Part shown: in pieces, positions 20,207 through 49,188 of the stretch | How the letters are laid out: each line of letters opens with the position of its first letter | How positions within the stretch are numbered: position 1 is the stretch's first letter | Assembly: GCA_016868775.1 (NCBI GenBank) | Contig: VGFT01000005.1 | Location: forward strand, 62,001-126,000 | Origin: Bacteroidota bacterium | GTDB lineage: Bacteria > Bacteroidota > Bacteroidia > Chitinophagales > Chitinophagaceae | DNA length: 64,000 nucleotides | Direction of reading: 5' to 3' | Program-made: the position numbers and the translations under genes | Notes under the pieces: generated by a model | What the model saw: the letters and a program-made list of their open reading frames with translations, nothing else | What the model was told of the DNA's origin: nothing | The model's database searches: none

Positions 20207-21712
20207 TTACTCTTCTGAGTCGGGCAAGGTTACGGGATAGCGGTAAATTCCATTGTATCCATCATAGAATCCCTCCACGCTGATGTTGTAACTGCGGGCA
20301 GCGGAAATGGCTTTGCTGAGTTCGTCCATATTTTTCACCTCCATGTCATTAACTCTCGTGATCACAAATCCCTCTTGCATCCGGGTCTGACTAAAGGGTC
20401 CGCCGGCGGTGATCTTATTTACAATTACACCTCCGGGGGCTTGGTTTCGTTCTGCCATTTTGGAGTCGATGTTGGCTAGTTCACCTCCTAATAGATTACC
20501 CAGGTTAGTCCCCGCTAAATTGTCATAACTCCCGGTTTCTTCTTTGAGCGTGACAGTTGAAGTTGCTTCCGTCCCGTTGCGTTTGTACGTGATGTTCACC
20601 TTATCGCCGGCGTTCAGGGAGGCGATTGTACCCTGTAATTCTCCCCAGGAGCCGATGGTATTACCATTGACTTTAGTGATGATGTCTCCTTTTTTCAGTC
20701 CGCCTGCTTCCGCTGCACCGCCCTTGGCGACATTCCCAATATAAGCCCCATCGGTAGAGTTGATTTTGGTTTGATCGGCAGCTACCCCCAAATAAGGGCG
20801 CTTGACATTGCCGAATTTGATCAGGTCGTTTACAATTTTTTTAGCCAGGTTAACCGGAATGGCAAAGGAATAACCGGCATAGGTGCCGGTGGGCGCGTAG
20901 ATGGCCGAGTTGATTCCAACCAATAAACCATCTGTGGTGATGAGTGCGCCGCCACTGTTTCCTTGATTCACGGCGGCATCCGTTTGTATGAAGGATTCGA
21001 TGGGGGTATCGCTCTGGCGACCATTGACACCGATGGATCGGCCTTTGGCACTCACAATGCCGGCGGTAACGGTCGTTTCCAGCGACAGCGGATATCCGAT
21101 GGCCAGTACCCATTGACCGAGCTGGACTTGATCTGAATTGCCATATAGTAAGTAGGGAAATCCGTTGCCATCGATCTTTAGCACTGCTATGTCGCTGCTT
21201 GGATCTCGTCCTATTACACGGGCGGTATATGTTTTTTTGTTATTTAGCGTTACCTTAATCTCTGCGGCTACTCCATCTCCTCCGTCCGTAATAACGTGGT
21301 TATTGGTTACGATATAACCATCATCGCTGATCAGCACTCCGCTACCGGAGGCACGCTGTTCGGGACGAATTTGTGGACCAAAAATTCCATCTCCAAAAAA
21401 TTGCTCCAACATTTCCTCAAGCCCTCCTTTTGTTTCAGGAAGTTGGTTGGTGACTCGTTTTGCAGGGGTTTTGGTTTTGATATGTACCACCGCCTGAACG
21501 GCTGCCTGGGATGCTTTTGTAAAGTCAATGGCGCTCCCGATATTTTGGGTTGCATTTTCCAAGAACCCGGCATAATTGGCCGGAAGCTTTGCCGCATCAA
21601 CTCCATCGAATTGGGGTGCACGGTTGTTGCTGAATCGGTCGTAAGTCCAAATCGTGGCCAGTGCGGTTGTGGCACTCAGTCCAACTACGACCAAAATTTG
21701 TTTCCATTTCAT
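20207..21712 (-). CDS. Do/Deg-type periplasmic serine protease with PDZ domains
   Basis: Triad motifs TNNHVI, SDIAVLKI, GNSGGAL; two C-terminal PDZ-like regions. Start at MKWKQILVVVG. Confidence 0.95.
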   Translation of the reverse strand: MKWKQILVVVGLSATTALATIWTYDRFSNNRAPQFDGVDAAKLPANYAGFLENATQNIGSAIDFTKASQAAVQAVVHIKTKTPAKRVTNQLPETKGGLEEMLEQFFGDGIFGPQIRPEQRASGSGVLISDDGYIVTNNHVITDGGDGVAAEIKVTLNNKKTYTARVIGRDPSSDIAVLKIDGNGFPYLLYGNSDQVQLGQWVLAIGYPLSLETTVTAGIVSAKGRSIGVNGRQSDTPIESFIQTDAAVNQGNSGGALITTDGLLVGINSAIYAPTGTYAGYSFAIPVNLAKKIVNDLIKFGNVKRPYLGVAADQTKINSTDGAYIGNVAKGGAAEAGGLKKGDIITKVNGNTIGSWGELQGTIASLNAGDKVNITYKRNGTEATSTVTLKEETGSYDNLAGTNLGNLLGGELANIDSKMAERNQAPGGVIVNKITAGGPFSQTRMQEGFVITRVNDMEVKNMDELSKAISAARSYNISVEGFYDGYNGIYRYPVTLPDSEE

Positions 21713-21796
21713 ATGCGCATATTTAGATAATAGATTGGGCAAATTAATTTTAAGTTGTCAAAGTACACCCGTACTCATTTGTAGTTTAACAATTTT

Positions 21797-46207: not shown

Positions 46208-46297
46208 ATTTATTTCGTAAAGATACAGGGACGGCCATGCAGGCAATACTTTTTTAACATCGGTACGTTATTTGTTTACCTTCGCGTTTTATTGAAT

Positions 46298-47203
46298 ATG
46301 AAGCTCACACTAGTGATCCTTGCAGCCGGTATGGCGTCTCGATATGGGAGTATGAAGCAGGTAGAGTCTTTTGGTCCGGGTGGCGAGACCATCATGGACT
46401 ATTCCATCTACGATGCCATTCGAGCAGGATTCGGAAAAATCGTTTTCATCATTCGGGAGCAGCATCAAGAAACGTTTCGTAGCTTGTTTGCTCCACGTCT
46501 GGCGGGGAAGGTGGCGGTTGAATATGTGAATCAGGAGCTCTTTATGCATACGGAGGGGTATCCTTTTTTATCAAGCCGAAACAAGCCCTGGGGAACGGCT
46601 CATGCAGTTCTCTGTGCAGGGGATGTGGTCCGGGAGCCGTTTGCGGTGATCAATGCAGATGATTTTTATGGCCGACATGCCTTTGAGGTGGCAGCCTCTT
46701 TTTTGAAGGAGGCTTGTCGCCCCAATCGATTTGCCATCGTCGGTTATCCGCTGTCCGGGACCCTGTCTGCGCATGGTTCCGTCAACCGGGGCGTTTGCTC
46801 CATCGATTCTTTCGGAAAATTGGTTTCTGTAACGGAGCGGATAAACATTGCTTCTCGGGATGGAAAGATTCTGGTTGAAGATGGGCTGTTGCCCAAGGAG
46901 TTGTTGCCCGACACCCGCGTGTCCATGAATTTCTGGTGTTTTGATCCGGCTTATTTCCCCTTGGCGCAGGAGTTATTCTCCGTATTTTTACAGACGCAGG
47001 GTCAGCTGGAAAAATCGGAGTTTTTTATTCCCCTAGTGGCGGATTCATTTATACAGAAGCATGGTGAGATCGAAGTCATACCCACCGAGGCACATTGGTT
47101 CGGGGTTACTTATAAGGAGGACGCACCCGCAGTACAATCCAGTTTGAATGCTTTGATCCAACAGGGAGAATACCCTGAGAGACTTTGGTCAACGCAGGGT
47201 TAG
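46298..47203 (+). CDS. Nucleotidyltransferase (NTP_transferase family)
   Basis: MKLTLVILAAGMASRYGSMKQVESFGPGGETIMDYSIYDA, PWGTAHAVLCAGDVV, AVINADDFYG. Confidence 0.9.
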   Translation: MKLTLVILAAGMASRYGSMKQVESFGPGGETIMDYSIYDAIRAGFGKIVFIIREQHQETFRSLFAPRLAGKVAVEYVNQELFMHTEGYPFLSSRNKPWGTAHAVLCAGDVVREPFAVINADDFYGRHAFEVAASFLKEACRPNRFAIVGYPLSGTLSAHGSVNRGVCSIDSFGKLVSVTERINIASRDGKILVEDGLLPKELLPDTRVSMNFWCFDPAYFPLAQELFSVFLQTQGQLEKSEFFIPLVADSFIQKHGEIEVIPTEAHWFGVTYKEDAPAVQSSLNALIQQGEYPERLWSTQG

Positions 47204-48300
47204 TTTACTTTGACCAAATAAACAAACTCCTGAATTTTTTTGACTTGTTGCGTGCGGTCCAAACCGCCCAGACGGGATAGAATGGGTGGACTAATGCGTT
47301 CGTTTCCACTTGTTTTTTTGAATTCTTGTAAACACGCCAGTATTTCTTGGCTGCGAATCGCAAAAACAGATCCCTGTTGGTCTGATTGGCGACCGTTCAA
47401 TATACCAATCACTTCGCCGTTTCGGTTGAGCACAGGACTTCCGCTATTGCCCTGGTGGGCCGCAATTTCCATCTGATAGCTCAGGGTATCGCCCTGGTAG
47501 CCGGTACGGGCACTGAGGTACCCTTGCCCATACACAACCTCATCTCTGGGATAGCCAAGCGTAAATAATGGCTCACCCAATGCAGCATTCTTTCGCGAGA
47601 GTCCGTAGGGGAGCGTAACAGCAATGGGATAATTTTTATCGATGACGCGTAAAAGGGCTAGGTCTCGTTTGGTGTCAATGTACGCCACCTCAGCCACATA
47701 CTCATTATTCCCTTGCTGAATGGCAATTTGCTTGGCATTTTCAACCACATGTCGGTTGGTTACCACCAAGCCGGTAGCATCCACCAAAAATCCGGTTCCC
47801 CCTTTTGTGTAGGCGATGCTGGAGACAGGAGGAGTATTTTTTTTGATTGCATCGATTTCGTTGCCTTGCTCCTTCGTGCGCGTGGCCAACCAATTGTACT
47901 TGCGGTTTAACTCTTCAAACTGACTTCCTTCACCCCTGGTTGAAAATAAGGTGATGAGTGCCGAAAGCGCCAGTGTTGTGATACCGGCTATCGAGGCGGC
48001 AATAGCGCCCGTGCGCTTGTACCGGTTCCAGAGGTAAACGATCTTGGCCTTTCCGATCAAGCGGGTGGCTTCGATTTTCCCCGCTTCGGCAAGATCGGTG
48101 TGAATGTTGTGTAGGGTGTGCTTGAATTTTTTCCATTCTCCAAAACGGTTGATTTTCTGGAGGAAGAGGGTATGTTCCACTACCAGTTGATCTACCGATG
48201 CATGGGTTTTTCGATAGTTTTCAAAATGGGCCCGCTCATCTGGATTCATTTCTCCCTTGATGTATCGTTCTACGGTCTCCAATATATTAAGGTCACTCAT
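47200..48300 (-). CDS. Fusion: anti-sigma-like N-terminus, TM, trypsin-like serine protease
   Basis: DLNILETVERYIKGEMNPDERAHFENYRKTH; TM GAIAASIAGITTLALSALITLF; coiled linker; triad motifs TNRHVV, KRDLALLRV, GNSGSPVL. Start may be 48315 or 48300. Confidence 0.88.
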   Translation of the reverse strand: MSDLNILETVERYIKGEMNPDERAHFENYRKTHASVDQLVVEHTLFLQKINRFGEWKKFKHTLHNIHTDLAEAGKIEATRLIGKAKIVYLWNRYKRTGAIAASIAGITTLALSALITLFSTRGEGSQFEELNRKYNWLATRTKEQGNEIDAIKKNTPPVSSIAYTKGGTGFLVDATGLVVTNRHVVENAKQIAIQQGNNEYVAEVAYIDTKRDLALLRVIDKNYPIAVTLPYGLSRKNAALGEPLFTLGYPRDEVVYGQGYLSARTGYQGDTLSYQMEIAAHQGNSGSPVLNRNGEVIGILNGRQSDQQGSVFAIRSQEILACLQEFKKTSGNERISPPILSRLGGLDRTQQVKKIQEFVYLVKVN

Positions 48301-48307
48301 TTCGGGT

Positions 48308-48850
48308 TCATTCAAGATTAAAAAATAATTTTTTCAGTCGTATCAAGCACTTGTATTTCTGATTTTTAGCGTTGTCGGCGTTCGTATATCCAAACTCAGC
48401 CGCGATGGTCGACATTTTTTGTCGGTGTAGGTAATACGCCTCCAGCAGACTTTTGCACGGTTCTCCCAACTGCTGTATGGCCTTCTCCATACGAACATAC
48501 TCGGCTTCCTCCTGCTCATGCCTGTCCAAATCCGGCTCCACAGAAACGGGATCGGCCACGTCGCCCCAGTCCGATACCATTCTTTTTTGCTGCTGCAATT
48601 TCTTCAGCCAAAGCCTCCGGCTAACCGAGTAGAGGTACGTGCGAATTTGACAGTTTAGCTCAAAATCGCCTTGCCTTACCTTTTCGTAAAGAACGATCAG
48701 GGCTTCCTGAAAAATGTCCCGAGCATCGTCTACCGAACCTTGATTATTGATAATCAATGACTGTATGCTATTATAGCTTCCCTGATAGATGGCTTCAATA
48801 GACTTACGGTCGTTCGTAGCAAGCCCGTGGAGAAGTTGATTTTCATCCAT
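48308..48850 (-). CDS. RNA polymerase sigma factor, ECF/sigma-70 family
   Basis: DDARDIFQEALIVLYEKVRQGDFELNCQIRTYLYSVSRRLWLKKL (sigma2), AAEFGYTNADNAKNQKYKCLIRLKKLF (sigma4). Confidence 0.93.
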   Translation of the reverse strand: MDENQLLHGLATNDRKSIEAIYQGSYNSIQSLIINNQGSVDDARDIFQEALIVLYEKVRQGDFELNCQIRTYLYSVSRRLWLKKLQQQKRMVSDWGDVADPVSVEPDLDRHEQEEAEYVRMEKAIQQLGEPCKSLLEAYYLHRQKMSTIAAEFGYTNADNAKNQKYKCLIRLKKLFFNLE

Positions 48851-48877
48851 GTATGGCTTCGGTCACCCTACCTTTTA

Positions 48878-48903
48878 ATACGGGCGGGTAAAAATAGTAA
48901 CCT
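48878..48903 (-). promoter_or_regulatory. Putative ECF-type promoter for the sigma gene
   Basis: Minus strand AGGTTAC-N15-GTAT, preceded by CGGGTA; 28 nt from the sigma ATG. Confidence 0.6.
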
Positions 48904-48932: not shown

Positions 48933-48958
48933 AGGTTACCTTTTCCTGTTTTCAGTAT
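48933..48958 (+). promoter_or_regulatory. Putative ECF-type promoter for the repeat lipoprotein gene
   Basis: Plus strand AGGTTAC-N15-GTAT, preceded by CGGGTATT; same motif and spacing as the opposite promoter. Confidence 0.6.
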
Positions 48959-48999
48959 ATATTCGCGAAATATTTCACAAAAACCCAAAAAATCAACAC

Positions 49000-49188
49000 A
49001 TGAAAAAGTTTTTTGCGATCGCTTTTCTTGCTGCTTTCACTGTAGCTTGTGAGCCTAAATCTGGTGATGCTACCACAACAACTGAGGACACTACCAAGAA
49101 AGAAGCTGCTGCTGACACAACTAAGAAAGAAGCTGCTGCTGACACAACTAAGAAAGAAGCTGCTGCTGACACAACTAAGAAGCCCTAA
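49000..49188 (+). CDS. Small repeat-containing lipoprotein
   Basis: MKKFFAIAFLAAFTVAC|EPKSG lipoprotein signal; body is (KKEAAADTT)x3 ending KKP. Confidence 0.8.
   Translation: MKKFFAIAFLAAFTVACEPKSGDATTTTEDTTKKEAAADTTKKEAAADTTKKEAAADTTKKP
49096..49176 (+). repeat. Three exact 27-bp tandem repeats
   Basis: AAGAAAGAAGCTGCTGCTGACACAACT at 49096, 49123, 49150, each encoding KKEAAADTT. Confidence 0.97.

Follow-up and report, generated by a model that had tools for sequence, protein, structure and literature searches.

In the 64,000-nucleotide stretch of DNA analyzed here (the window), a gene for an extracytoplasmic function (ECF) sigma factor is followed by a gene whose product joins an anti-sigma-type domain, one transmembrane (TM) helix, and a trypsin-type protease in a single polypeptide. 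The pair is best explained as a self-contained, autoregulated envelope-response module with a built-in site-1 protease, a reading to which we give a probability of roughly 0.6; its binding and cleavage steps are inferred. The two-gene operon, the anti-sigma-type domain, the predicted topology, the intact DegS-like protease, and the divergent lipoprotein target were shown or strongly supported. The conserved promoter pair and the lipoprotein gene that faces away from the sigma operon are new here and were absent from the original prediction, and we are highly confident that they are part of the module. The features of the locus are given in Table 1.

Table 1. Features of the sigma/fusion locus and the divergent lipoprotein gene (positions in the window; residues counted from the ATG start of the fusion)
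Feature	Position	Strand	Basis
ECF sigma factor gene, 180 aa	48308..48850	minus	TIGR02937, E 6e-17
Gene for the anti-sigma/TM/protease fusion (366 aa from its ATG)	47200..48300	minus	
Cytoplasmic, helical domain of anti-sigma-like type, residues 1-83 (helices 3-15, 20-32, 34-72)	48052..48300	minus	AlphaFold, profile match
TM helix, residues 98-118, in which small residues are conserved (AIAASIAGI)	47947..48009	minus	Hydropathy, conservation, model
Periplasmic linker, residues 119-165 (helix 125-155)	47806..47946	minus	Conservation, AlphaFold
S1 protease domain without PDZ, residues 166-331 (triad H184/D213/S286)	47308..47805	minus	Pfam, PDB sequence matches, Foldseek
C-terminal tail, residues 332-366, conserved (helix at 349-357, strand at 360-365)	47203..47307	minus	Relatives, AlphaFold
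Predicted autoregulatory ECF promoter of the sigma operon, GGTTAC-N15-GTATTA	48876..48902	minus	Motif conservation
Predicted divergent ECF promoter facing the lipoprotein gene, GGTTAC-N15-GTATAT	48934..48960	plus	Motif conservation
Gene for a small lipoprotein-like product of 62 aa (lipobox at Cys17; A/D/T/K tail, disordered)	49000..49188	plus	

Both open reading frames described in the original prediction, the ECF sigma gene and the fusion gene, lie where it had placed them, with 7 nt between the sigma stop codon and the fusion start codon in the window. The NCBIfam scan of the sigma factor returned the general ECF sigma model. The fusion had earlier been numbered from an upstream TTG codon (371 aa); the ATG five codons downstream is preferred because it is backed by the sequences of relatives, and the earlier residue numbers are therefore shifted by five. 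After this correction, the triad formerly listed as H189/D218/S291 is intact and corresponds to H184/D213/S286, and the one TM helix formerly placed at residues 103-124 falls at about residues 98-118 by hydropathy. The single-chain AlphaFold model of the full-length fusion (mean pLDDT, 91) contained the three N-terminal helices, a membrane helix spanning residues 84-119, and, beyond it, the linker helix, a trypsin fold, and the helix and strand of the tail. A single TM helix with a cytoplasmic N terminus was predicted by hydropathy, by the positive residues on its N-terminal side, and by the model helix. The positively charged stretch KAKIVYLWNRYKR lies immediately N-terminal to the TM helix, implying a topology with the N terminus inside and the protease outside. 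The linker was the least conserved region (34 to 56 residues long in relatives), and no conserved cleavage motif was found in it across the relatives. Full-length relatives retained the layout and the triad down to about 25% identity, which indicates that the fusion is not a chance arrangement. The fusion gene and a convergent sugar nucleotidyltransferase-like gene (positions 46292-47203, plus strand) share 4 bp at their 3' ends (positions 47200-47203).

The N-terminal domain, which had been likened to the helical start of anti-sigma proteins of the Bacteroidota, proved homologous by profile comparison to the anti-sigma domains of ECF-linked anti-sigma factors. Comparisons with hhalign gave probabilities of 95.3 to 97.9% (93% when only divergent members were used) and E-values of 3e-7 to 5e-13, whereas the probability was 0.1 to 0.5% in eight controls that used reversed profiles or different ones. 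The reference set consisted of anti-sigma factors taken from relatives by means of the NCBIfam model NF052375, and 16 of its 18 proteins adjoin a sigma gene. Single-sequence scans of the N terminus of the window protein against Pfam and NCBIfam yielded nothing meaningful, and those of 36 N termini from relatives yielded only weak matches, to zf-HC2 in four cases and to the NF052375 anti-sigma model in five. A profile search of the PDB with the N terminus returned nuclear-receptor matches only, which were taken as chance. Elsewhere in the order, two loci (L302 and L303) encode an anti-sigma protein beside a related sigma factor (26 to 29% identity to the window sigma) that matches the fusion in its N-terminal domain and TM helix but carries periplasmic TPR repeats, not a protease. 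With TPR repeats in one case and a protease in the other, the shared part (N-terminal domain plus TM helix) resembles a modular chassis with exchangeable periplasmic parts, as far as can be judged from sequence. We consider it very probable that the fusion is an anti-sigma factor; sigma binding is inferred, and there are no binding data.

Contact between the sigma factor and the N-terminal domain was approached by structure prediction and coevolution. A read-through AlphaFold model of a close relative's sigma factor and fusion N terminus, which bears on binding only indirectly, with the stop codon read as Gly, had a pLDDT of 91.3 and a pTM of 0.80. In this model the chains are linked by few residues, so that the short joint may help, and contacts are not visible. 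In a fold search with the model, the top matches were mainly sigma factors from sigma/anti-sigma complexes, with poor global superposition (TM-score of 0.26 by query length), and the search was of no help for the N-terminal domain. Mutual information between the sigma factor and the N terminus, computed from about 150 effective sequences, showed no excess over sigma/protease control pairs. The sigma gene has a GTG start codon in many relatives (L005, L016, L017, L020, and others), and its leader there is very short, often with only 11 to 13 nt separating the start codon from the -10 element; together, these features hint at restrained translation.

Judged by its sequence and predicted fold, the periplasmic part of the fusion is a protease of the HtrA/DegS type that lacks a PDZ domain and has an intact triad. 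The Pfam scan returned trypsin-type models only (Trypsin_2, E 2e-25) and no PDZ domain, the place of which is taken by the short conserved tail; without a PDZ domain, the activation mode of DegS is not applicable to the fusion. Sequence matches in the PDB were to HtrA1 and DegS, and the top Foldseek match was DegS delta-PDZ (2qf0), the nearest solved folds being DegS without its PDZ domain, HtrA1, and DegP. The triad was intact in all 193 full-length copies. A self-cleaving domain of the RsgI/SEAL kind was ruled out, since the periplasmic part is a trypsin-fold protease. Secreted trypsin-like proteases of the Bacteroidota (L083-L098 and L146-L150) share a homologous protease domain and the C-terminal tail with the fusion and differ from it in having a signal peptide, other N-terminal regions, and no adjoining sigma gene; none of 22 such signal-peptide relatives had one. 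The genome from which the window comes contains two other HtrA-like matches besides the fusion and an RseP-type M50 protease (a match over the cutoff in a 468-aa frame). A larger HtrA-like protease of 511 aa is encoded in the window (positions 20207-21742, minus strand) and resembles the fusion in the protease domain only.

The sigma factor and the fusion are a core pair across the family. The fusion was detected in 285 of 299 family genomes, representing 103 of 104 genera and nearly always in a single copy, and relatives of the sigma factor were detected in 284. Both were absent from 11 of the 299 genomes; among genomes at least 95% complete, five lacked both (G076, G095, G108, G170, and G215), and in four of these five the strict promoter motif was absent as well. 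Four genomes had a protease match and no sigma factor, which is accounted for in every case: in three of them the gene is incomplete where a contig ends or close to that point, and the fourth contained a secreted relative only. In the rest of the order, the full layout was found in one genome only (G346), and in the wider class it was found in several other families; the named public relatives belong to the Chitinophagaceae and to other Bacteroidota. The original prediction was to be given up if homologous fusion genes were routinely found away from an ECF sigma gene. The opposite was observed: the upstream sequence sufficed for a test of linkage in 192 of 195 distinct copies, and in 192 of 192 the sigma gene lay directly upstream on the same strand (median gap of 1 nt, overlaps being common). 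In the protease tree, the fused copies formed one group (support 94/57; recovered in 94% of bootstrap trees, with a modest SH-aLRT value), consistent with a single fusion event, and the fusion apparently arose once.

Upstream of the sigma gene, GGTTAC was present at 84 of 85 nonredundant loci (about 2 expected). The full pattern, GGTTAC-N15/16-GTATTA, preceded the sigma gene at 80 of the 85 nonredundant loci and at 176 of all 189 loci, compared with 0% of shuffles, and a second copy pointing in the opposite direction was present at 157 of the 189 loci, again with 0% in shuffles. Autoregulation of its own operon by the sigma factor is, on the grounds of promoter conservation, strongly supported. 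Behind the divergent promoter region, an open reading frame of 52 to 120 aa with a lipobox was found at 170 of 189 loci (0.8% in shuffles), while reading the region in the other direction gave one at only 5 of 189. The mature lipoprotein contains almost no aromatic residues and is made up of A, T, D, K, S, V, E, and P. Its C-terminal residue was Lys in 114 of the 170 cases and His in 27. Braun's lipoprotein is attached to peptidoglycan through its C-terminal Lys, and the terminal Lys seen here is reminiscent of it; this is a resemblance only. The window copy of the lipoprotein gene contains a 27-bp tandem repeat of 3.5 copies (positions 49087-49181, plus strand), the number of which may vary between strains.

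According to the reading that we prefer, the N terminus of the fusion would keep the sigma factor at the membrane, with binding inferred, and an envelope signal would switch on the tethered protease. The protease would then serve, by inference, as a built-in site-1 protease that cleaves the helical linker, either its own or that of a sister molecule, and RseP and a cytoplasmic protease would presumably finish the release of the sigma factor. Free sigma factor would act on its own operon and on the divergent lipoprotein gene through the twin GGTTAC-N15/16-GTATTA promoters, and the lipoprotein would be the main output and, speculatively, a decoy substrate or a ligand that provides feedback. Self-cleavage as the trigger is put forward tentatively, at slightly less than even odds, as there are no cleavage data and the ordered site-1/site-2 cleavage is inferred. 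A fuller version, in which a one-protein stress sensor starts its own destruction and the lipoprotein, as ligand or decoy, sets the activity of the protease, so that a three-gene feedback circuit would be a core trait of the family, is possible and rather doubtful at present.

Release without self-cleavage is conceivable if the protease is both an active quality-control enzyme and the sensor, such that its engagement or saturation by misfolded envelope proteins shifts its conformation or oligomeric state and the sigma factor is freed through the TM helix. The strict conservation of the triad, together with the lack of a conserved cut site in the linker, fits this, and a helical linker joined to a TM helix with conserved small residues could transmit changes in oligomeric state; against it stand the standing of RseP-type proteolysis as the usual pathway and the RseP homologue in the genome. 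With no direct evidence either way, we regard this alternative as unlikely. The site-1 cut might also be made by a separate protease, with the fused protease processing the divergent lipoprotein or other envelope proteins. Two other HtrA-like matches in the genome are compatible with such a division of labor, as is the disordered lipoprotein tail rich in A, T, and V, since tails of this kind suit HtrA-type cleavage, but the covalent tie to the anti-sigma domain in every copy would be left unexplained, and this arrangement seems to us distinctly improbable.

Two further readings concern the link between the proteins themselves. Because there are no data on the mode of binding and the coevolution analysis was uninformative, the N-terminal domain could be a membrane tether or a positive partner of the sigma factor and not an inhibitor; its profile homology to ECF-linked anti-sigma domains and a layout like that of the TPR-type anti-sigma proteins beside related sigma factors speak against this, and little weight is left for it. 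That the two genes are functionally unlinked and neighbors by an accident of operon structure has nothing in its favor beyond the lack of wet-lab data, and it is essentially refuted by the adjacency in 192 of 192 copies across several families of the class, by the co-loss, and by the shared conserved promoter.

In the textbook sigma-E system, the anti-sigma factor and the site-1 protease are separate proteins. The module shares with the RseA/DegS/RseP system of Escherichia coli an ECF sigma factor, a single-pass anti-sigma factor, a periplasm-facing DegS-like S1 protease, an RseP-type site-2 protease in the genome, and an autoregulated operon. It differs in combining anti-sigma factor and protease in one polypeptide without a PDZ domain, in the lack of RseB in the operon, in its promoter and lipoprotein target, and in an apparently far smaller regulon. 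The RskA-like, class I anti-sigma factors of the Bacteroidota (NF052375 type) likewise have an N-terminal helical domain, one TM helix, and an adjoining ECF sigma gene, but their extracytoplasmic parts are different, and none of those extracted had the size or the layout of the fusion. The RsgI factor of Clostridium thermocellum, with SEAL-domain autoproteolysis, resembles the proposed mechanism in that the anti-sigma factor makes its own first cut; RsgI cuts itself inside a periplasmic autocleavage domain, whereas the fusion carries an entire serine protease, catalytic triad included. In RsgI anti-sigma factors, the first cut is followed by RseP and ClpXP (PMC12203970), and RsgI and the sigma-E pathway (reviewed in PMC8103513) are the nearest mechanistic precedents. 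In one survey, only 6% of Bacteroidota ECF genes had a class I anti-sigma domain encoded next to them; the survey includes no trypsin, the word peptidase occurring only in a reference (PMC7406223). The fusion architecture was undescribed in the literature searched, which did not include the main ECF reclassification. The system has the appearance of a compact sensor of envelope stress that has so far gone unstudied, and the fusion has been kept, with its active site intact, by almost every genome of a large family. The module offers a clear, genetically simple anti-sigma system for the Bacteroidota, in which the twin promoters and the divergent lipoprotein gene supply a ready-made reporter and a candidate for the output.

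Genome-wide, the loose promoter pattern was not above the control (6 versus 8 sites in the genome of the window). The strict pattern, searched in 57 genomes, was far above the reversed control and occurred mostly at the sigma/fusion locus, and no strict motif was found in five genomes without the sigma/fusion pair. Given this scarcity, the regulon is probably very small, as estimated from motif counts. In G108, which has no detectable sigma factor or fusion, the motif stands before a similar lipoprotein gene (L184) away from any sigma gene, reflecting either an assembly gap or a remnant. Further strict sites preceded more small lipoprotein genes, some genes for secreted proteins, and, in two genera, the gene for a 96-aa protein that we take to be CBM48-like. 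Genes of this 96-aa type follow the strict pattern at L191 (in G005) and L199 (in G067) and are a candidate extra target.
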